33,820 bases of DNA from Elusimicrobiota bacterium (GTDB lineage: Bacteria > Elusimicrobiota > Elusimicrobia > UBA1565 > UBA9628), in contig JACRNU010000016.1 of the NCBI GenBank assembly GCA_016234805.1, positions 1 to 33,820 on the forward strand. The letters run 5' to 3'. A model generated the notes under the pieces. It was not told the DNA's origin, ran no database searches, and saw only the letters and a list, made by a program, of their open reading frames with translations. The position numbers and the translations under genes were made by a program. Below are positions 7,493 to 33,820 of this stretch, piece by piece. How positions within the stretch are numbered: position 1 is the stretch's first letter; the number at the start of each line of letters is the position of its first letter.

Positions 7493-8272
7493 ATGAGATC
7501 CTCCCTGCTGGCCTCCGCGGTCCTCATCGCCGCGTCCGTCCTGCCGTGCCCCGGGTGGGCGAAGAAACCCTCGCCTCCCGCGCCGGCGGTCGGGACCGAG
7601 ACCTCGGCGCCGCGGCCCTCGCCCGGAACGGCGATGCCGCTCCTTCCCCCGACCACGGCCCCCATCACGGTGGAATCCGTCTTCGAGCGCCTGGCCGAGT
7701 TCGACGCGAAGATGACGAGCCTCGCGCTATCCTTCCGGCAGTCGGTCCGCCTGGAAGAGGGGGGGGCGCCCCAGACCAAGGAAGGCAGCCTCGTCTTCCT
7801 CAAGCCCAAGCGCCTGCGCCTGGAGTACCTCCGGCCCGAACCCCAGACCGTGGTGTCGGACGGCAGGACCTTCTGGGTCTGGAGGAAGTGGATCAACCAG
7901 GTCATCGAGTCCTCCTTCGAGGACTGGCGCAGGAACGACCCGGCCCTCGAGGGCCTGCTCAACTTCGGGAACTACGCCTCCCTGCTCAAGCGCTACGACG
8001 TGTCCGTGGCCAGCGTCTCAGCCCGCGGCGCGGACGGACACCGCTCCTTCCGGCTCGACCTGCGGCCCAAGGCCAAGGACGCCGGGTTCGTCCTGTCCCT
8101 GACCCTATCGACGAAAGACTACTTCCCTTACGACGCCCGCCTGACCGCCTCGGGCGCGGTCGTCGAATCCGCCTTCACCGACGTGCGCTTCAACCCCGAC
8201 CTCTCCCGCTCGCTCTTCGACTTCACTCCGCCCAAGGACGCGGACGTCTTCCGCTACCCCAACGGCCCCTGA
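7493..8272 (+). CDS. lolA: Outer-membrane lipoprotein carrier LolA family protein
   Basis: LolA is the periplasmic chaperone that carries lipoproteins from the LolCDE complex to the outer membrane. The 259-residue protein has a signal peptide (about 1-23, ending GWA), a Pro-rich spacer (about 24-58), and then the LolA fold. Visible landmarks are SFRQSVRL, EGSLVFLKPKRLRLEY, PQTVVSDGRTFWVW, the late LTASGAVVESAFTDVRFNPDLS and FDFTPPKDADVF. The spacer makes it longer than E. coli LolA (about 200 residues). The position right behind ftsK matches the order in gamma-proteobacteria. Paralogous LolA-like proteins with other cargo exist, so the exact cargo is not certain. Confidence 0.88.
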   Translation: MRSSLLASAVLIAASVLPCPGWAKKPSPPAPAVGTETSAPRPSPGTAMPLLPPTTAPITVESVFERLAEFDAKMTSLALSFRQSVRLEEGGAPQTKEGSLVFLKPKRLRLEYLRPEPQTVVSDGRTFWVWRKWINQVIESSFEDWRRNDPALEGLLNFGNYASLLKRYDVSVASVSARGADGHRSFRLDLRPKAKDAGFVLSLTLSTKDYFPYDARLTASGAVVESAFTDVRFNPDLSRSLFDFTPPKDADVFRYPNGP

Positions 8273-22539: not shown

Positions 22540-22569
22540 CTGGCGCGCGCCCCTGACCGACCGGGTCAG
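22540..22569 (-). terminator. Weak hairpin at the oleD stop codon, possible end of the ole transcript
   Basis: CTGACC and GGTCAG (22553-22558 and 22564-22569) pair around a five-base loop and include the oleD stop codon. On the minus strand they are followed by the palindrome GGCGCGCGCC and then CTTTGACTTTT. It could attenuate read-through from the ole operon into the pyrimidine operon. No clean T-tract is present, so the assignment is weak. Confidence 0.25.
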
Positions 22570-23558
22570 CCGGTACGGCGCAGCGACTCGGCCAAGCGCT
22601 TCAAGCCCTCGTCGATAGTGATTTTGGGCTCATAGCCCAGGTCGCGCCGCGCCGCCGAGATGTCGAACCAATGGCTGGTCGAGAGTTCAGCGGCCAGAAA
22701 GCGCGTCATCCTGGGCTCGCCCGACAGGCCCAAGGCCCGGTGCGCGAGTGCCAGCACGGCTCCGGCAGCGTAGGCGGCTAAAGGGGGGAGGCTCCTCTTC
22801 AGCGGGGGAAGTCCTGCGGCGACGAGGATGCCGTCCACGAGCTTCCACACGGGCCAGGGCTCTCCGTTGGAGATGAAGTACGCCCGGCCTGCCGGAGGCT
22901 TGCCAGGAATGAGGCGGTCGGCGGCTAGGATGTGGGCGTCCGCCGCGTTGTCGATGTAGGTCGAGTCCACCAGGCGGGGCGGGCCGCTGAGCTTGAAGAG
23001 CCTGCCCTGCTTCGCCCGCGTCACGATGCGCGGGACCAGATGGTTGTCTCCAGGCCCCCACACGAGGTGAGGCCGCAGGCTCACCGAGGCAAGAACCGGG
23101 CTGTCGGCAGCGAGTACGAGACGCTCAGCCGTTGCCTTGGTCTCGGGGTAAGGGGCTTCGTACCGGCTGGGATAGGGGACTGATTCGTCAACGCCTTCCA
23201 TGTCGCGGCCGTGGAAGACCACGCTGGGCGAGCTCGTGAACACCAGGCGAGGCACAGCGGAGGCCTTGCACGCCGCGATCACGTTCTCCGTGCCTGTCAC
23301 ATTGGACCTATGGTATTCCTCCGGGGAACCCCAGACTCCGGCCTTGGCAGCCGCATGGAAGACCACGTCCATGCCCCGGACCGCCCGGAACACTGTTTCA
23401 GAGTCCGCGATATCTCCCAGCGCGGAGTCGACACCCAGGCGGGCCAGGTCCGGGTGCAGGGTCCTGGAGAGGCTCCGGACCGTGTCCCCGCGCCGGGCCA
23501 GCCTCTCGACGATGGCTTTCCCGATGAAGCCTCCGCCTCCGGTGACGAGGGCCCTCAT
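22566..23558 (-). CDS. oleD: OleD-type NAD(P)-dependent 2-alkyl-3-ketoalkanoate reductase
   Basis: OleD reduces the 2-alkyl-3-keto acid made by OleA to the 2-alkyl-3-hydroxy acid. The 330-residue protein is an extended short-chain dehydrogenase of the 3-beta-HSD type. TGGGGFIG (6-13) is the Rossmann loop, followed by VVFHAAA, SSPSVV around Ser109-110, and the catalytic YPETK (Tyr137, Lys141). ATG 23558 overlaps the oleC stop (ATGA); a longer open frame upstream lies inside oleC and is rejected. The sugar-epimerase family is an alternative by fold, but the oleABC neighbours decide. This is the last gene of the hydrocarbon operon. Confidence 0.9.
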   Translation of the reverse strand: MRALVTGGGGFIGKAIVERLARRGDTVRSLSRTLHPDLARLGVDSALGDIADSETVFRAVRGMDVVFHAAAKAGVWGSPEEYHRSNVTGTENVIAACKASAVPRLVFTSSPSVVFHGRDMEGVDESVPYPSRYEAPYPETKATAERLVLAADSPVLASVSLRPHLVWGPGDNHLVPRIVTRAKQGRLFKLSGPPRLVDSTYIDNAADAHILAADRLIPGKPPAGRAYFISNGEPWPVWKLVDGILVAAGLPPLKRSLPPLAAYAAGAVLALAHRALGLSGEPRMTRFLAAELSTSHWFDISAARRDLGYEPKITIDEGLKRLAESLRRTG

Positions 23559-25201
23559 CTGAGCCGGGTCCCTGCCCAGACCGCGAGCGCTTCCCGGTCG
23601 ATCTTGGCGTTGTGGCGGATATCCACGGGCAAAGACGGGTGGAACAGGAGATCCTTGATGCCCGCCGTGACCGGATTCGAGGACGCGAGCAGGAGCAGCT
23701 CGTCCTTGAGGCTCTTCGAAGGCCGGACGCCGGCTTCGAACTCGATGATGATGACCGGTCGCCGGCTGGGCGCACGGCCCACGCCCACGAGAGCGCTGCG
23801 GCGCACCGAAGGATGGGCGTTGAACACGGATTCGCAGGGCACGCTGAAGAGCGTGCCGCTCGCGACTATGACCCGGTGGGCTTTGCGGCCGCAGAACCAC
23901 ACCCGGCCCTTGTCGTCGAGCCTGGCCAAGTCCCCCATGCGATGATAGAAGCCTCCGTCCGCGCAGGGGATCTTGCCGAGCTGGTCGCAGTCCGGACGGC
24001 CGAAATAGGACCGGGTGACATTCGGGCCCCGGACCGCGACCTCGCCTGTCTCGCCCGGAGCCGTGAGCAGGTCGTCCGACCAGCAGGAGGGGATGGGTGT
24101 GTCGCTGATCCTGATGATCCGGAGCTCGAGTCCCGGGAAGGGCCGGCCCACGCAGACCCCGGCCCCGCGGTCGGTGAGGCCCGCGGTCTCGGAGAGGATC
24201 TCGTTGCCGCCGATGGAGGTCACCGGCAGAGCCTCGGTCGCGCCATAAGGGGTGTGGACTTCCACGCCCGGAGCAAGCAGTCGCTGGAAGCGGGCCACGA
24301 CCTTGGGAGGCACCGGCGCGCCGGCGGACACAACGCGCTTGAGGGAAGGAAGAGCCACGCCCCGGGCTTCGCCCCAGCGGCCCACTCGGTCGAGCAGGGC
24401 AGGGGAGCCGAAAAGATGAGTCACGCGATGGCGGAGGATCGGGCCGATGATGTTCTCAGGGTCCACGCGTCCGGGCTTGGTAAAGTCCATCTCCGGGATC
24501 ACCGCGGTCATGCCCAGGCTGGGCGCGAACAGAGCGAAGAGCGGGAAGGTCGGAAGGTCGACCTCGCCGGGACGGATCCCGAAGTGGTCCCGGAGCATGG
24601 CGACCTGGGCCGCGAAGTTGCCGTGGGTGTAGACCGCGCCCTTGGGGATGCCGGTGCTGCCCGAGGTGAAGAGGATGGCCGCGGTGTCGTCCGGCCCCGA
24701 GGATACGGCCTGGTACGGCCGATCCTCGCCGAGCCGCAGGACCTCGGCCAGGGTGCGCATGCCCGGCACACGGCGCGGGCCCACGATGATCCTGGTCTTC
24801 AAGGTCCTCCTGGCCCAGCCAAGGAGGACACGGCCGAGATGCGCGAGCGGGATGCCGATGAACGCCTCAGGCGCGGCCGTGTCGAGACAGGCCCCCAGGC
24901 TCCTGCGGTCTATGCCCGGATCCACGAGCACCGGCACCGCTCCCATGCGAAACATGGCGAAGGTCAGGCTGGAGAACTCAGGTCCTGGACGGACCATGAG
25001 CGCCACGCGCGTGCCCCGTGTGATGCCGACCGCCGAAAGCCCTCGGCAGCACGCGTCCGTCTCCGCGTTCAAGCGGCTGAAGGACCAGGCTGTTTCTTTC
25101 CGTCCCTTGAGGAAGATGATGGCAGACCGGTCCGGCTCCCGTGCCGCGGTCTCCGCCAAAGGAGCGGAGAGGTCCACTCCGAGAGATGAGGGGGAGGTCA
25201 C
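23555..25201 (-). CDS. oleC: OleC-type AMP-dependent beta-lactone synthetase
   Basis: OleC uses ATP to activate the 2-alkyl-3-hydroxy acid and closes it to a beta-lactone. The 548-residue ANL-superfamily protein has the phosphate-binding loop LFTSGSTGIPKG (177-188), the adenine-binding TPYGATEALP, the YHRMGDLARLD core and the hinge region near FCGRKAHR. Annotation pipelines usually call it a fatty acid CoA ligase; the oleABCD context supports the beta-lactone role. It starts at GTG 25201, whose bases overlap the oleB stop (GTGA), and ends overlapping oleD (ATGA). Confidence 0.9.
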   Translation of the reverse strand: MTSPSSLGVDLSAPLAETAAREPDRSAIIFLKGRKETAWSFSRLNAETDACCRGLSAVGITRGTRVALMVRPGPEFSSLTFAMFRMGAVPVLVDPGIDRRSLGACLDTAAPEAFIGIPLAHLGRVLLGWARRTLKTRIIVGPRRVPGMRTLAEVLRLGEDRPYQAVSSGPDDTAAILFTSGSTGIPKGAVYTHGNFAAQVAMLRDHFGIRPGEVDLPTFPLFALFAPSLGMTAVIPEMDFTKPGRVDPENIIGPILRHRVTHLFGSPALLDRVGRWGEARGVALPSLKRVVSAGAPVPPKVVARFQRLLAPGVEVHTPYGATEALPVTSIGGNEILSETAGLTDRGAGVCVGRPFPGLELRIIRISDTPIPSCWSDDLLTAPGETGEVAVRGPNVTRSYFGRPDCDQLGKIPCADGGFYHRMGDLARLDDKGRVWFCGRKAHRVIVASGTLFSVPCESVFNAHPSVRRSALVGVGRAPSRRPVIIIEFEAGVRPSKSLKDELLLLASSNPVTAGIKDLLFHPSLPVDIRHNAKIDREALAVWAGTRLR

Positions 25202-26085
25202 GACTTCTTTCCGGGGGGGTGGCGCGCCAGAAAATCCTTCACGAGCCCGCTGATGGCCGGACCCTCATCCTCCAGGACATAGTGTCCCGCTTCAGGGAAG
25301 CGGTGCGTCTCGGCCGATGGGAAACGCCGCACCCACTCCGCGAGGAAGGACGCGTCGAACACGAAGTCCTTCATGCCCCAGCAGATGAGCATCGGGGCAT
25401 CGGTGAAGCGGTGCAGGCCCTCTGCCACGGCCTGGACCACCGGGTAGGCATTGTCCCCGGGGACCAGGGGGATGTCCTGCACGAAGCGCAGGGTCGCGAT
25501 GCGATTCGCCCAGGAATCGTACGGCGCGACATAGGCCGCGGCCGTCTCCCGGGACATGGGCTTCTTCGTGACGCAAAGCCGCGTGGCCCCGACCGCGAAC
25601 GCGTTGAAGCCCCGGATGAGGAGCGTGCCCAGCATGGAATCCCGGCCGAGCTTGAGCTGCCAGGGCAGGAACTTGCCTCCAGGCAGGGGAAAGGCAGCGG
25701 TGTTGAGGATCACGAGGCGGCGCACGCGTTCCGGACGGCGGGAAGCCCAGGCCATGCCGATCATGCCTCCCCAGTCGTGGAGGACCAGGGTGATATCCTT
25801 GACCAGGCCGAGCTTTTCCAGGAAGGCCTCGAGGTCCGAGACCCGGCGCGACAGGGTGTACTCGTAGCGCTCGTCGGCGGGCTTGTCCGAGAGGCCCATG
25901 CCGATGTGGTCGGGCGCGACACAGCGATAGCCCCCGGCCATGGCGTCGATGAGTCCCCGGTAGTAGTACGACCAGGAGGGGTTGCCGTGGAGCATCACGA
26001 GCGGCTCGCCCTGGCCCTCGTCGCGGTAGTGCATGGCCAGGCCGTCGATGTCCATGAAGCGGCTTCCGGGCATGGCGCTCACCAT
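25198..26085 (-). CDS. oleB: OleB-type alpha/beta hydrolase, beta-lactone decarboxylase
   Basis: OleB releases CO2 from the beta-lactone to give the cis internal olefin. The 295-residue protein belongs to the haloalkane-dehalogenase-like branch of the alpha/beta hydrolases: oxyanion HGNPSWSY (33-40), nucleophile Asp104 in LHDWGGMIG, a candidate acid in WGMKDFVFD (about 240-244) and His268 in EAGHYVLED. The Asp nucleophile, rather than Ser, fits OleB. ATG 26085 overlaps the oleA end; GTG 26082 and ATG 26073 are possible alternative starts, since none has a strong ribosome site. The stop overlaps the oleC start. Confidence 0.9.
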   Translation of the reverse strand: MVSAMPGSRFMDIDGLAMHYRDEGQGEPLVMLHGNPSWSYYYRGLIDAMAGGYRCVAPDHIGMGLSDKPADERYEYTLSRRVSDLEAFLEKLGLVKDITLVLHDWGGMIGMAWASRRPERVRRLVILNTAAFPLPGGKFLPWQLKLGRDSMLGTLLIRGFNAFAVGATRLCVTKKPMSRETAAAYVAPYDSWANRIATLRFVQDIPLVPGDNAYPVVQAVAEGLHRFTDAPMLICWGMKDFVFDASFLAEWVRRFPSAETHRFPEAGHYVLEDEGPAISGLVKDFLARHPPGKKS

Positions 26086-27035
26086 TTCAGACCCAGCATG
26101 AGGCAGTTGAGCCCGCTGCCGATGCCGAGCAGTCCCACCGTGTTCCCGGCTTCGATGTGGCCGCGCTCGGCAGCCAGCGCTGCGGTCAGGGGCAAAGAGA
26201 CCGTGCCGATGTTGCCCAGATACTCGAAGGTGGTGAAGTCTTTGGCAGGGGGGACGCCGAACGCGGCAAGGATCTCGCGCTGGTGCACGCTGCCCACCTG
26301 GTGGCAGATCACCTTGTCCACGCCCCCGGCCGTCCAGCCCAGCTCGGAGAGGAAATCCTCCCAGGTGCGCTTGCCGAGCACGACCCCGTTCTTGAGCACC
26401 GCGACCGCGTCCGTGGTCATGACCTCCGCAAGACGGCCGCGGACCGCTCCTGGCCCGGGAACAGGGTCCACGCCCCAGCGGCAGATGCGGTGATGCTCGG
26501 GCGCTGCCCGGCCCACCCCTCCCAGCAACCGGTGGCCCGCGCCCCCGAACGAGCCGTCCGTGAGGAGCACCGCGACAGCCCCGGACCCGCCGGTCAGGGT
26601 GGCGAGGCAGTCCTTCCAGGTCTCCACGTCGCGGCGGCCGAGCATCCGCTCGATGGAGAGCTCGTTGATCTCGCGGGCGGACTCGGTCGAGGTCACCAAG
26701 CCCGCGCGGATCTGCCCGAGCTCGATGCGGTTGGCCACGTCCACCATGCCGTTGAGCACCCCGAGGCAGGCGTTGGAGATGTCGTAGACCGCGGCGCTCC
26801 CGCGCACGCCGAGCTTCTCGGCCACGGCGCACGCGGTGGCGGGCTCGAAGTTCTCCCTGCAGACCCCGGAGTAGACGAGGACGCCCAGGTCCGAGGGACG
26901 CACCGCGGTCCCTTCCAAAGCCTTGCGGCCCGCGGCCGCGGCCCCGTCCGAGAGCCGGAACCCGGGGTCCCACCAGCGCCTCTCGCGGATGCCGGTGAAG
27001 GCCTCGAGCTGTCCGGCCTGGATGCCCAGGAGCTT
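26079..27035 (-). CDS. oleA: OleA-type thiolase (head-to-head acyl condensation), 5' end missing
   Basis: OleA condenses two fatty acyl thioesters to a 2-alkyl-3-keto acid. From base 27035 the frame shows 318 residues of clear family sequence: GQLEAFTGIRERRWW, the nucleophile Cys90 (visible numbering) in YDISNACLGVLNG, His245 in CHQVGSVH, Asn275 in YLGNIGTVSLP and the end GIGSGLNCLMLG. The catalytic triad is intact. No ATG, GTG or TTG start and no ribosome site exist where the N-terminus should begin. About 35 residues that precede this point in characterised OleA are absent, replaced by the end of the megasynthase read in another frame. The listed start is therefore the first residue with family likeness, not a start codon. 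Confidence 0.85.
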   Translation of the reverse strand, partial: KLLGIQAGQLEAFTGIRERRWWDPGFRLSDGAAAAGRKALEGTAVRPSDLGVLVYSGVCRENFEPATACAVAEKLGVRGSAAVYDISNACLGVLNGMVDVANRIELGQIRAGLVTSTESAREINELSIERMLGRRDVETWKDCLATLTGGSGAVAVLLTDGSFGGAGHRLLGGVGRAAPEHHRICRWGVDPVPGPGAVRGRLAEVMTTDAVAVLKNGVVLGKRTWEDFLSELGWTAGGVDKVICHQVGSVHQREILAAFGVPPAKDFTTFEYLGNIGTVSLPLTAALAAERGHIEAGNTVGLLGIGSGLNCLMLGLKW

Positions 27036-30000
27036 GCCAGGCCCAGAGAAAAGCCCTTCATCTGGTAGATAATGAGCCCGTCCACCTTGAGGAATCCGTC
27101 GGCGACGATGGTCCGCGCCGCGTCGTCGGCCTCGGTGACCACGGCTTCCACCGTCACGAGCTTGTTGGACGGGATGACCTGGCCCCGGTAGACCCACTCG
27201 TGGGGCCGGCCGAGGACCATGGGGATCCATCGGAGGCCTGGCGCCGCCTTCCAGCGCTCGCGCGCCACGACCTTGAGCAGCTGCAGGAAGGACTCGAGCC
27301 CGAGCGAGCCGGGGCACACCGGGTCCTGATAGAAGTGCGCTTTGAAGAACCACTCCGAGGGGTCCACCCGCTTGACGCCGCGGATGTAGCCCAGGCCCCG
27401 GGGTCCGCCCTCCGGGAGATAGGCCTCCACGGAATCGAACATCAACAGACTGCGGGCCGGCATGGGCAGCCCCTTCGCGTCATAGCCTCCGGCGAGGTCC
27501 TCCGGCGTCAGGGGAGGCAGGTCTTCCAAGACGGGGAGGGAAGAGCCCGCTGCTTTCCCGTCAGGCGCCCAGGGAGTCACGCCGAGCACGCCCTTCTGCT
27601 CGGAGAGGGCCTTCTTGGAGAAAAATCCGAAGTAGGTGTCGCCCTTGTAGACGAGGCGGCTCCCAGCGCGGACCTCCATGTCGTAGTTCTGGATGATCAT
27701 GCCCACGGACTGCGAGACCTTGGCGAGCTTGATCCTCGTCGAGAGCGTCCCGGCGTCCGGGAGCACCTCCGAGTGGACCACGGCCTTTCCTCCGAGGTTG
27801 CGGAAGGAGAGGTCGGTTTCGCTGCACAGGGCGCTGCCGAGGTACGCGGCTAGCCACCCGCAGGGCTGGAGCGCGGCCTCGAGCAGGACCGCGAAGGGCA
27901 TCCCGGCTTGGCGGTTGGCGCGGAAGTACCAGGCGTCCGGCGGGACGTCATACTCGGCTTCGATCTCGGCTCCGGCCTCAAGCACCCAGGGCCGGCAGCC
28001 TTCGATGCGGGTGATCCTGTCGAGGAACTGGTAGGGCGGCCCTGGCAGCCGGGCGATGACGCGCTCCGAGTCGAACACCTTGTAGCGGTCCCCGAAAGCC
28101 TCGGAGGGCTTGCCCTTCGCGAACGCGAGGATGCGCTCCGGACCGAAGAGAGCGGTCGGCCGCTCGCCCGTCGCGGCCGCGGGAGCGGGGCGGCGGTCCT
28201 TCCACAACGCCTCCACCTTCTCCCGGGTGAGCCCAGCTACGCGGACCGACATGTCCGTGATGAGCACGATGGGCTTGCCGTCCGAATACATGAGGGCGTC
28301 GGCGATGGCGAAAGGCACGGGCCCGTAGCCGAGCTCCTTGACCGAGATCTCGTAGACCACCTCCTTCGTGGCGGGCAGGACCTGTCCCCGGCACTTGAGC
28401 TTGCTCCCCACTCCGGGGACAGGCTCGAACCAGCACTCGGAGGCCTCCCCGACCCAGCCCATCCGGAGCAGGAAGATCCTCAGGGTGTGCATGCAGCACT
28501 CGAACATCAGGGTGCCGGGCATGACCTGGTCGTCGATGAAGTGGCAGGTGAGGAACCAGTCATCGGGGCGGATGTCCGCCTCGGCCCTAATGAGGCCCAG
28601 CCCGTAGCGGCCGCCCTTCGGGTCGAGCTCGAGCACGCGGTCCACCAGCCGCATCTTTCCTTTCTGTCCCGGGATGCGCAGGGGCTCCCTGAGCCCGAGA
28701 GCGCTGAACGCGGACCCGAACGCGGCCGCGAGGTCTCCGGCCCTCAGGGCCCCGACCGCCTTGTCGTCCAAGGCCTCCCGCTTCATGGGGACCAGGTCCC
28801 GCCAATCAGCGGGCTTGCGGCCAGGCAGGGGCTTGCGGTCCAGCTCGGTGAAGACGATGCCCTTGCCCTGGGCCAGCTGGTCAGGGGTGAAGAACCCGGC
28901 GCAGCCCTTGCTCATGCTCAGCAGGGGCTCGCCGTTGACCGTGCTCTCGAACTCGAAGAAGAAGATGTAAGTGTCGCCCTGTCGGGCGAAGCGGAGGATC
29001 TTGATGTCGTACCTGATGACGTCTCCCGGCACGGGCAGGCCGCGGTGGAAGGTGGCGGTCGCGTCGAGGAGCCGGTACATGGCCAAGCCCCGGGTCTTGA
29101 GGTCGATCCCCAGATAGCCGGAGAGGAACAGGTCCGCCTGGCCGGCCTCCACCGCGATGCAGGTCGGGATGCGGCCGCCATCCAAATACCACGCTCCCTC
29201 GGCTACGTCGTGCTCCGTGACGACCCCGCCCGAGGTCATGGAAAGAGGCTCTCCCGAGACGGAGAGGATCCTGTCCACCAGCATGAGCGGCTCATCCGGA
29301 AGCCGCACCCTCGTGGGGAAGGAGTCGATCTCCGCGAAAGCGTTTCCGAGGACGTCGCCGATCCTGCCCACGGCGAAGCGAAGGCAGTCCTCGCGGGTGA
29401 GGAAGAGCTTGGGGACTGAACCGGGCGTCACCCCAGGGACCGCCGGAAGCGGTACAGTGTCGGCGGTCATCAGGCTGAGTACACGAAGCCTAGCCTGGGC
29501 ATTGGCCTCGGCCATGCGCAGGAACGCCTCGTGCGCCTTGATGGCCGCGGCTTGGGCGGAGGCGATGCCTGCGAGCACGGGGTGGCCGGATCCTGGAACG
29601 ACAGGGGCCGCGGGCAGAGTCCGCTTCGGGGCTGGAGCGTGCTGGACCACATGAAGGGCAGGGGAAGAGACCTGGGCCGGCAGCGGAGTCTTGACCGGAG
29701 GCGCGGCAGGAGTCCGCGTCTCAGGCTTGGCAGGGGGAGAAGGCTTGGGGCCGGGACAGGCGTCAGGAAGGCCGCGCTGGATGGGGACTGACACCGCGTG
29801 CTTGGCCGGGAGCGCCGGCTCGGCATGGCCCAGGACGCGGGTCTCGAACCCGTAGAGGGCCGCGAGATCGACCGTGCTGCGCTCCGCGACCATGGCAGCG
29901 GCCAGCCTCAGGATCGAGGACGCGCCTTCCTGGTCGCGCACGCACGCTGAGCGGGCCAGGTGCGGCCTGTCCCCGAGGATCTTGGAGACCATGCGGCTGC

Positions 30001-33000
30001 AGGTGTTGCGCGGCCCCATCTCCAGGAACACCCGGAACCCATCTTGGTACGCGCGGTCCACGAGGACCGGGAAATCGATGCCGGAGACGGCTTGGGCCGT
30101 GACCGCCTGTGCCGCGGAATCCTTGTCCACCGGGTAGGACCTGCCCCAGGCCCCACTGTAGAAGCGGACACCGGCCGGAGTCTCGGTCGGGAGCGTATGG
30201 AGCTCGCGATAAGCTTCCTCCACCTCCCGGGCCACCTTGCAGTGCACGGTCGTGACGCCCTGCAGGGGCAGGAAGGTGCCTCCCAGGCCGGCCACGAGCT
30301 TGCCCACGGCCTGGCGAGTGCCTCCGACCACGCACTCCTTGGGCGTGTTGACGATGAGGAGGAACGCCTGCTCCATCTTGTCCACCGCGGTGCGCACGAG
30401 CTTCTCCGGCCGGTCGATGACGCCGAGGACCCAGTCCACGGCCTCGTGCGCGGCCAGGCCCCAGGCCTTGCGCGCGGCGTCGCAGCGGCCCGCGAGGTCG
30501 CTGACGAAGAGGCTCGACCGGTCCATGCGCCGCAGCATCTCATCGCGGTCCTTCCAGGCGCGCATGGCGAAGAGCCCGGCGGTCTCGCCGAGGCTGTAGC
30601 CGATGACCCCTTCGGGCGACACGCCTAGGGAGCGCACGAGGTCGCTCATGGCCACGCCATGGGAGACCTGGCCGAAGATCATGCCCCGGTGGTCGCGGCT
30701 GAGCTTCTCGGCCGCGCGTGCCTCCCAGCCCTCGGGCCAGGAACGGCGCCAGGGGAAGAACATGTCGGGACGGAACTGGTCCCTGAGACGCTTGTTCTGT
30801 GTGTCCTGCTTGCGGGGGATATCGGGCCACTGCGTCCAGACATCGCTTCCCATCCCGATGTACTGGTTGCCGGAGCCGGGGAACACGAAGGCGACCTTGC
30901 CCTCCGGACCGACCGGCTCAGGCGAATAGAAGACGCGGTCCAGGCCCTGGATCGGGACCCCGGGGTCCGCGATGAGGGAACGCTCCGCGAGCCCCAGCTG
31001 GCTGACGAGCTCGTCTTTCCCGCGCGCGACGAACGCCACGCCGAGCTTGCGGCGGCCGGAGCCGGCCGGGCGCGCCGCGAACCAGTCCCGGGCGAGAGCC
31101 TCGATGCCGCGGGAGGCCGGCTGCTCTCCGAGCCAATCCCTGAGCCCGGCGATGCCCGCGGTCAGGGCGGGAGGGGTGTTCTCCTCCACGCTGAACAATC
31201 CCTCGTTCCTCGCGCCGAGAGGCTGGCACCGTTCGACCGTCGACACCCCCGCGTCCACCTGGGATTCCAACCCCTCGAGCACGACGTGCACGCAGTCTCC
31301 GCCGAGGCCGACGCTGCTCACGCCCGCGCGCCGCGGCCCGTCCTCCCGGTTGTGCAGCCAGTACTGGGGGGACCGAGGGGCGTGGAAGCGCTCGCCCGCG
31401 TGCTTGAACTCGTCGCGGGCCTCGCGCAGGCCGAGGGGGGGCAGGATCTCCTGGTAGAGGGCCAGCGCGGCCTTCACCAGGGAGGCCATGCCTGCGGCCG
31501 CGCCCGCGTGCCCCACGACCTCCTTGACGCTGCCCAATGCCAGGCCGGGCCTCTTGGAGGCCCCGAAGAAGCGGGCGAGGGACGCGGCCTCTGCCTCGTC
31601 CTCGGCCGGGATGCCGCTGCCGTGGCCCTCCAGGTAGGACACGGAGGACGGCTTGACGCCCGCGTCCTCGTAGGCGCGTTCGAGCGCCGTCCCGTACTCC
31701 GCGGCGCGGCCGATGCCCCGGATGACCCCGTAGATCCGGTCGCGGTCGCGCAGGGCGTCCCCGAGCCGCTTGAGCACCACGGCCCCGGCCCCCTCGCCGA
31801 GAACGGCGCCGTCCGCGTCCCGGTCGAACGGAGCCGCGCTCCCGTTCGTCGAGGCCGAGCGGCTGGACTCGAAGGCGCGGCAAGAGCGCTCGTCTCCGGC
31901 CAGGTCCACGGCCCCGGCCAGGGCGGTGTCGAGCTCGCAGCGCTGAAGCGCCCGGACCGCGGCGTGGAGGGCGTTGAGGCCCGAGGTCTCCTCGGAGGCG
32001 ATCGTGAAGCTCGGGCCGCCGATGCGGAACTCGCGGGCCACGCGGCTGGCGATGATGCCGCCCAGCGCGCCCATGGTCCGGTTGGCGGAGAGCGGCGGCC
32101 CCGCCATGCCGCGAGCCTCCTCGGGCAGGGACCAGCGCAGGTGGAAATCCGCAGTGTGGACGTCTAGCTCCATGCCGATGAAGACCCCGGTCCTCTCGTG
32201 GTCCCGGTCGAGCGCCCCGGCGTCGCGCAGGGCGGCCTCGGCCACCTGGAGCATGAGGACCTGCTGAGGGAGCATCTCGGAGAGCTCCTTCGGGGGGATG
32301 CGGAATGCGGAGGGGGAGACCTCCAGGTCCGGGACCAGGCGGCCTGCCTTGTCCGAGGATCCGGCCAGCACCGCCTCCTGGAAGGCGCGCAGCCTAGTGC
32401 CCCCTCCGATGCCTTGGAAGGGGCCGACCGGGCAGGGCGCCGCGTCCTCGCCCGCCCGAGGCGGCTCGGGCCGCCCTTTGGGACGGCGGTGCGGGGGGAC
32501 GTGCTCCTCGAGCAGGACGTGGCCGTTGATCCCGCCGAAGCCGAAGGAGGAGACTGCGGCTTTGCGCGTGACCCCCTCGGAGCGCGGGGTCCAGGCCGCG
32601 GCCTCGGTCTGGACGCGGAAGGGACTGCCGTCCAACGCGATGCGCGTCCCCGGCTTGGAAAAGTTCGCGGACGGAGGCAGGATCCCGTTCTTGAGGCCCA
32701 GCAGGACCTTCATGAGTCCGGCCGCGCCCGCGCCCGTGAGAAGGTGCCCGACGTTCGACTTGACCGACCCGATGCTGGTCTGTCCGGGCCGCCACCCATC
32801 AGGCCCCCAGAGCGCCTGGAGGCTGCGGAACTCGGCCGCGTCGCCCACCGGAGTCCCGGTCGCGTGGCACTCGATGAGGTCCACGTCCGATGGGCTCCAG
32901 CCCGCCCGGTTGTAGGCCGTCCTCATCGCGCGCAGTTGGCCTCCGCCCTCGGGAGCCAGGAGACTGCCGTCGATGTCGTTGGAAAGCCCGAAGCCCCGGA

Positions 33001-33820
33001 TGACAGCGTAGACCTTGTCCCCAAGGGCTTCGGCGTCCGAGAGCCTTTTCAGAAGGAAGAGTCCCGCGCCCTCGCCCACCACGAGGCCGTCCGCGGACTC
33101 GTCGAAGGCCGAGCACCGGCCCGACGCGGAAAGCGCGCGCAGTTGGGTGAAGCCCATCTGGGTGTAGAGGCAGTCCGGCCGCGAGATGCCTCCGGCCAGC
33201 ATGGCGTCGGCCCGGCCCTCGAGGAGCTCGTCCGCAGCCAGCTTGAGAGCGTAGATGGACGAGGCGCAGGCCGCGTCCAGCGTGTACGACCCGCCGCCGA
33301 GGCCCAGCGCCCTGGCCAGCATGGGGCCGGGAAGCCCGGCCGCGTAGCGGTTGAGAGGGGAGACCGCTGCCCCGGCGCGGGGAAGGGACGGGCCGCTACC
33401 CGTCCTCAGCGGAGGCGGCACGTCCGCGCCAGGAACACCGGGCGCGGACAGGACGCGCTCCCGCAGAGCGTCCTCGAGAGCTCCGCGGCAGAAGGCGGAG
33501 AACAGGTCCGTGGGGAGAGCGATGTTCCCGATCACGACGCCCACGCGGCGGCGGTCGAGCCTCTCATCCGGCACCGCGTCCTCCATGGCCATCCTGCCCG
33601 CGTGCAGGGCGAAGTGGAAGGAAGGGTCGAGTTCCTTGATGAGCGCCGGATCGAGGTTCAGGCCGGCAGTCTCGAGCTCGAACCCGTCGATGTAGCAGCC
33701 GGCCGTGGAAGCCACCTTGTCGGAGGTCCCGGCCACGGGATCGTAGGCGGCGGCAGGGGGCATGATCCAGCGTCCCGCGGGAACCTCGCGGACAGCGGAC
33801 CGGCGAGCGACGATGTCGGA
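26693..33820 (-). CDS. PfaC-like megasynthase: KS - KS/CLF - AT - four FabA-like hotdogs (runs off right edge)
   Basis: The open frame continues past the window end; numbers here count from an internal Met at 33763. KS1 (1-425) has the triad Cys166, His300, His340. A second KS (about 475-830) has Glu592 in place of the Cys, as in a chain-length factor. An AT (about 955-1300) has FPGSGNQ, Ser1057 in GYSLGE and His1174. A Pro/Ala linker follows (1310-1400). Four hotdog domains follow (about 1480-1635, 1690-1855, 1905-2050, 2100-2242). Hotdogs 2 and 4 keep His1741/Glu1755 and His2143/Glu2157; hotdogs 1 and 3 lack the His. This is the PfaC plan of PUFA synthases with an AT added. No ACP, KR or ER is visible. 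Family sequence ends near 27038; the last 115 residues are out-of-frame oleA. Confidence 0.88.
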   Translation of the reverse strand, partial: SDIVARRSAVREVPAGRWIMPPAAAYDPVAGTSDKVASTAGCYIDGFELETAGLNLDPALIKELDPSFHFALHAGRMAMEDAVPDERLDRRRVGVVIGNIALPTDLFSAFCRGALEDALRERVLSAPGVPGADVPPPLRTGSGPSLPRAGAAVSPLNRYAAGLPGPMLARALGLGGGSYTLDAACASSIYALKLAADELLEGRADAMLAGGISRPDCLYTQMGFTQLRALSASGRCSAFDESADGLVVGEGAGLFLLKRLSDAEALGDKVYAVIRGFGLSNDIDGSLLAPEGGGQLRAMRTAYNRAGWSPSDVDLIECHATGTPVGDAAEFRSLQALWGPDGWRPGQTSIGSVKSNVGHLLTGAGAAGLMKVLLGLKNGILPPSANFSKPGTRIALDGSPFRVQTEAAAWTPRSEGVTRKAAVSSFGFGGINGHVLLEEHVPPHRRPKGRPEPPRAGEDAAPCPVGPFQGIGGGTRLRAFQEAVLAGSSDKAGRLVPDLEVSPSAFRIPPKELSEMLPQQVLMLQVAEAALRDAGALDRDHERTGVFIGMELDVHTADFHLRWSLPEEARGMAGPPLSANRTMGALGGIIASRVAREFRIGGPSFTIASEETSGLNALHAAVRALQRCELDTALAGAVDLAGDERSCRAFESSRSASTNGSAAPFDRDADGAVLGEGAGAVVLKRLGDALRDRDRIYGVIRGIGRAAEYGTALERAYEDAGVKPSSVSYLEGHGSGIPAEDEAEAASLARFFGASKRPGLALGSVKEVVGHAGAAAGMASLVKAALALYQEILPPLGLREARDEFKHAGERFHAPRSPQYWLHNREDGPRRAGVSSVGLGGDCVHVVLEGLESQVDAGVSTVERCQPLGARNEGLFSVEENTPPALTAGIAGLRDWLGEQPASRGIEALARDWFAARPAGSGRRKLGVAFVARGKDELVSQLGLAERSLIADPGVPIQGLDRVFYSPEPVGPEGKVAFVFPGSGNQYIGMGSDVWTQWPDIPRKQDTQNKRLRDQFRPDMFFPWRRSWPEGWEARAAEKLSRDHRGMIFGQVSHGVAMSDLVRSLGVSPEGVIGYSLGETAGLFAMRAWKDRDEMLRRMDRSSLFVSDLAGRCDAARKAWGLAAHEAVDWVLGVIDRPEKLVRTAVDKMEQAFLLIVNTPKECVVGGTRQAVGKLVAGLGGTFLPLQGVTTVHCKVAREVEEAYRELHTLPTETPAGVRFYSGAWGRSYPVDKDSAAQAVTAQAVSGIDFPVLVDRAYQDGFRVFLEMGPRNTCSRMVSKILGDRPHLARSACVRDQEGASSILRLAAAMVAERSTVDLAALYGFETRVLGHAEPALPAKHAVSVPIQRGLPDACPGPKPSPPAKPETRTPAAPPVKTPLPAQVSSPALHVVQHAPAPKRTLPAAPVVPGSGHPVLAGIASAQAAAIKAHEAFLRMAEANAQARLRVLSLMTADTVPLPAVPGVTPGSVPKLFLTREDCLRFAVGRIGDVLGNAFAEIDSFPTRVRLPDEPLMLVDRILSVSGEPLSMTSGGVVTEHDVAEGAWYLDGGRIPTCIAVEAGQADLFLSGYLGIDLKTRGLAMYRLLDATATFHRGLPVPGDVIRYDIKILRFARQGDTYIFFFEFESTVNGEPLLSMSKGCAGFFTPDQLAQGKGIVFTELDRKPLPGRKPADWRDLVPMKREALDDKAVGALRAGDLAAAFGSAFSALGLREPLRIPGQKGKMRLVDRVLELDPKGGRYGLGLIRAEADIRPDDWFLTCHFIDDQVMPGTLMFECCMHTLRIFLLRMGWVGEASECWFEPVPGVGSKLKCRGQVLPATKEVVYEISVKELGYGPVPFAIADALMYSDGKPIVLITDMSVRVAGLTREKVEALWKDRRPAPAAATGERPTALFGPERILAFAKGKPSEAFGDRYKVFDSERVIARLPGPPYQFLDRITRIEGCRPWVLEAGAEIEAEYDVPPDAWYFRANRQAGMPFAVLLEAALQPCGWLAAYLGSALCSETDLSFRNLGGKAVVHSEVLPDAGTLSTRIKLAKVSQSVGMIIQNYDMEVRAGSRLVYKGDTYFGFFSKKALSEQKGVLGVTPWAPDGKAAGSSLPVLEDLPPLTPEDLAGGYDAKGLPMPARSLLMFDSVEAYLPEGGPRGLGYIRGVKRVDPSEWFFKAHFYQDPVCPGSLGLESFLQLLKVVARERWKAAPGLRWIPMVLGRPHEWVYRGQVIPSNKLVTVEAVVTEADDAARTIVADGFLKVDGLIIYQMKGFSLGLASSWASRPDSSRPSPASARGAGGTPGSGSRTGPRPRAARLWKGPRCVPRTWASSSTPGSAGRTSSPPPRAPWPRSSACAGAPRSTTSPTPASGCSTAWWTWPTASSSGRSARAW

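Follow-up and report, generated by a model that had tools for sequence, protein, structure and literature searches.

A broken boundary between the PfaBC-type synthase gene and oleA in a pfaBC-oleABCD operon

Organization of the pfaBC-oleABCD locus

The window analysed here (33,820 bases) makes up the whole of contig C60 in G000, a draft genome of 128 contigs with 92% completeness. Its minus strand carries an operon in which a pfaBC synthase gene is followed by oleA, oleB, oleC and oleD (Table 1). The last three genes are intact and overlap by a few bases. The contig is thus an ordinary pfaBC-oleABCD operon, of a type that is already known, with a broken boundary between its first two genes. 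The synthase matched a ketosynthase (KS), a second KS-like domain (CLF), an AT domain and four FabA-like domains, arranged in the order KS-CLF-AT-DH in a single frame open over 2262 codons, with the N terminus cut off by the contig end. This is the order that Shulse and Allen (2011) gave for pfaBC fusions, [KS-CLF-AT-DH] (PMC3098273). The Type I secondary lipid synthase clusters of Geobacter and relatives have the same layout, with KS-CLF-AT and then FabA-like domains encoded in one gene directly upstream of oleA; these clusters, to which ole genes are linked, were proposed to feed olefin synthesis (PMC3098273). The window differs from these clusters in its host, most likely a member of the Elusimicrobiota, and in its broken oleA boundary; it has four FabA-like matches, where the same paper writes DH2 for pfaBC fusions. 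The closest named relatives are Elusimicrobia, among them a groundwater metagenome-assembled genome of the same genus (G022), which we used as the main reference for the boundary.

The contig end at 33820 falls inside the synthase. No PfaA scored over its cut-off elsewhere in the assembly, and the ACP-repeat gene expected upstream of the synthase is probably unassembled. Compared with other family members, the CLF entry region (32404-32300) is short by about 18 residues; the segment beginning KERWWG is absent, in frame, and the VAIVGM motif that normally comes immediately before it cannot be recognised.

Table 1. Features of the operon and of the pfaBC/oleA junction in the window
Feature	Position	Strand	Remarks
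PfaBC-type secondary-lipid synthase, KS-CLF-AT and four FabA-like domains	27035..33820	-	5' end lost at contig end; no stop at family end
CTGGGC copy 1	27041..27046	-	Encodes Leu-Gly in synthase tail; G022 homologue CTGGGA
Putative deletion join	27034..27036	-	About 115 bases absent relative to G022 (synthase stop, spacer, ribosome site, oleA start and 33 codons)
CTGGGC copy 2	27024..27029	-	Encodes Leu-Gly in OleA; G022 homologue CTCGGG
Nonsense extension of the synthase frame	26693..27034	-	113 codons and stop; overlaps oleA out of frame
oleA remnant	26079..27035	-	318 codons and stop; no start codon or first 33 residues; catalytic Glu/Cys/His/Asn present
oleB, alpha/beta hydrolase	25198..26085	-	Intact
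oleC, AMP-binding enzyme	23555..25204	-	Intact; beta-lactone synthetase homologue by position and family
oleD, NAD-dependent reductase homologue	22566..23558	-	Intact

A synthase without a stop and an oleA without a start

The last FabA-like domain of the synthase (27463-27059) is complete, covering positions 1-137 of a 138-position profile. The tail that follows, ..IIYQMKGFSLGL, reaches the end of the family with CTG at 27040-27038 and an Ala codon, GCA, at 27037-27035. The frame contains no stop from the contig end at 33820 until 26695-26693, and beyond the family end it reads as Arg/Ser/Pro-rich nonsense, as the first-pass annotation of this DNA had correctly placed it.

The oleA frame, offset by -1 from the synthase, becomes family-like from a Lys codon at 27035-27033 (LGIQAGQLEAF) and stays open to its own stop at 26079. 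It scored 424.6 bits against NCBIfam PRK09258 (cut-off 285), matching profile positions 36-338 only; a complete N terminus with a start codon is missing. From 27197 to 26918 the oleA frame contains neither ATG, GTG nor TTG, and hence no start near the junction. The annotation had described an oleA devoid of a start, a ribosome site and about 35 N-terminal residues, and the loss measured against the OleA of G022 is 33 residues. Likewise, the match to the Xanthomonas campestris type of OleA (PDB 3row/3fk5) begins at native position 36 and continues to the end (E 2e-50); relative to these structures the window OleA lacks the start and the N-terminal 33 residues and has an insertion of about 14 residues ahead of the MTTDA segment. 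The catalytic Cys, His, Asn and Glu, invariant across 71 distinct homologues, are all present. The lost residues are conserved about as well as the rest of the protein (mean majority fraction of 0.67 versus 0.71) and include the near-invariant positions L15, V19, S22 and E26.

A fourth-order coding-frame model trained on long open reading frames of this genome detected at 27034 a change of frame on the same strand with no intervening stop; the window has no other such switch, and 336 kb of the genome have just one more. Since the model finds the break independently, the observation is neither chance nor a misread frame. The scan counts only switches whose upstream frame is open for more than 75 nt, and its totals of two suspect switches in 336 kb of G000 versus eight in 376 kb of G022 are lower bounds. 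With two per 336 kb, we rejected widespread indel noise in this genome. The other suspect switch in G000 (L123:9543, contig C59) lies inside a long coiled-coil gene.

The boundary in related genomes

In G022 the boundary is normal: the synthase ends in ..DFSLGMA and a stop, and a short spacer with a GGAG site precedes the ATG and RYSKV... of a 353-residue OleA. The distance from the last homologous synthase residue to the first homologous OleA residue is 117 bases in G022 and 2 in the window, a shortfall of about 115 bases. In four more relatives with tight spacing the distance is 110-116 bases (108-114 missing), giving a loss of 108-115 bases over the five. These sizes presume an ancestral spacer like that of the relatives, chiefly G022, whose OleA is 86% identical across the remnant. 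Both ends can be seen in about 55 further distinct loci; in every one of them the synthase stop lies within 12 codons of the end of the protein, OleA has a separate frame, and no synthase-OleA fusion occurs. The comparison with relatives that the first-pass annotation had proposed thus found stop, spacer, start and OleA N terminus all kept, and supports its suggestion that a deletion or an assembly fault removed some 100 bases or more, at the size given above.

The pfaBC-oleA pair is common to Elusimicrobia and Geobacter-type bacteria (L049-L057), often only 2-19 nt apart. This distribution suggests that the linked pair spread between phyla, and the tight spacing fits joint expression of synthase and OleA.

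Origin of the broken boundary

We propose that about 115 bases were lost from the pfaBC/oleA boundary of an ordinary operon. Such a loss would have deprived the synthase of its stop and oleA of its start along with 33 codons, taken away the spacer and the ribosome site in it, and left the genes joined out of frame. Translated as recorded, the synthase would end in a nonsense tail of 113 residues. Because the oleA frame has no start codon from 27197 to 26918 and the last 60 synthase codons hold no slippery heptamer, OleA would not normally be makeable from this record, which points to a loss of OleA function in the record. A search for a second oleA that might rescue the function turned up nothing in this genome, which is 92% complete, beyond a KAS III of 27% identity on contig C64.

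We considered several ways in which the bases could have been lost. Two CTGGGC copies flank the join, at 27046-27041 and 27029-27024 as first annotated, and a collapse between them had been put forward as the cause. A deletion mediated by a repeat leaves a single repeat copy. Here both copies survive, 17 bases apart, each with its own counterpart in G022 (CTGGGA in FSLG and CTCGGG in VLGI), and the join falls between them; the pair is therefore not the cause of the loss. No repeat that spans the join exceeds 6 bases. Loss driven by a hairpin was also discarded, the homologous G022 segment folding no better than shuffled sequences (z = 0.77). A gap filled with N was rejected as well, the window containing no N; in the sampled 302 kb of G000 such bases occur only in a single 1.1-kb contig that is masked throughout, and the sequence sampled from G022 has none.

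The offset of -1, with both frames open across the join, could be read as a programmed frameshift that yields a real synthase-OleA polyprotein, the alternative raised in the first-pass annotation. We consider this very improbable. The last 60 synthase codons contain no X XXY YYZ heptamer, confirming what had been noted before, none of the roughly 55 relatives is fused in this way, and the product would be devoid of the 33 OleA residues with their near-invariant positions. That the join is real and a polyprotein arises by an unrecognised -1 shift is just as far-fetched; if true, it would channel the acyl product of the synthase straight into head-to-head condensation. Fusions within the ole pathway are documented, with oleB and oleC encoding one polypeptide in Actinobacteria (PMC7064751); in contrast, a synthase-oleA fusion was present in none of the loci examined here. 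Of the earlier interpretation, the loss of 100 or more bases stands, whereas the CTGGGC repeats as its cause and the frameshift fusion do not. Judged from the sequences compared here, the broken boundary is most probably either an assembly or consensus error, which we slightly favour, or a very recent real deletion, and not a functional fusion (probability of about 0.94).

Assembly error or recent deletion

Under an assembly or consensus error, the DNA of the cell would have a normal boundary and the flanks would have been wrongly joined in the contig, for example at a closed gap. We rate this slightly above even odds. The genome is a 128-contig draft, and many apparent bacterial pseudogenes are due to assembly errors (PMC11017572). 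Apart from the join, the genes on either side are intact and show purifying selection: the oleA remnant, compared with G022, has a dN/dS of 0.16, and oleB, oleC and oleD have values of 0.21-0.23. With OleB, OleC, OleD and the active-site residues of OleA intact, the loss would be very recent or would never have occurred in the cell. The congener G022 has its own, different small out-of-frame deletion in the same synthase, indicating that such breaks occur in these draft genomes. Against an error speak the rarity of such breaks in this genome and a join with neither a long repeat nor an N run in or near it. A scrambled assembly would leave a stray OleA N terminus, and none was found elsewhere in the genome.

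A real recent deletion, somewhat short of even odds in our judgement, would mean that this lineage or strain no longer has OleA and so cannot make head-to-head hydrocarbons, with decay yet to reach the other parts of the operon. It is favoured by the clean join in a contig free of ambiguity codes, by the lack of a long repeat that could mislead an assembler, and by the few other frame breaks in the genome. However, oleA, oleB, oleC, oleD and the synthase frame show no decay elsewhere, and the contig is the sole support for the deletion. We therefore lean slightly towards the error. Taken at face value, the contig would suggest that a single fused megasynthase makes lipid and hydrocarbon, or that the organism is OleA-null; neither should be claimed from this record alone.

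In the G022 break, about 64 bases have gone from the region that separates KS and CLF (L032:3729-3750; G022 contig C53, around 34745), where the window is in frame. The protein there reads ..LRAFQEA and then PSAFRIPPKE in another frame, and this join also sits between two kept short direct repeats (CGCTTTCC, 20 bases apart). The same synthase also breaks frame in a single-contig relative (L044, genome G013, 7971-7983), around residues 2021-2024.
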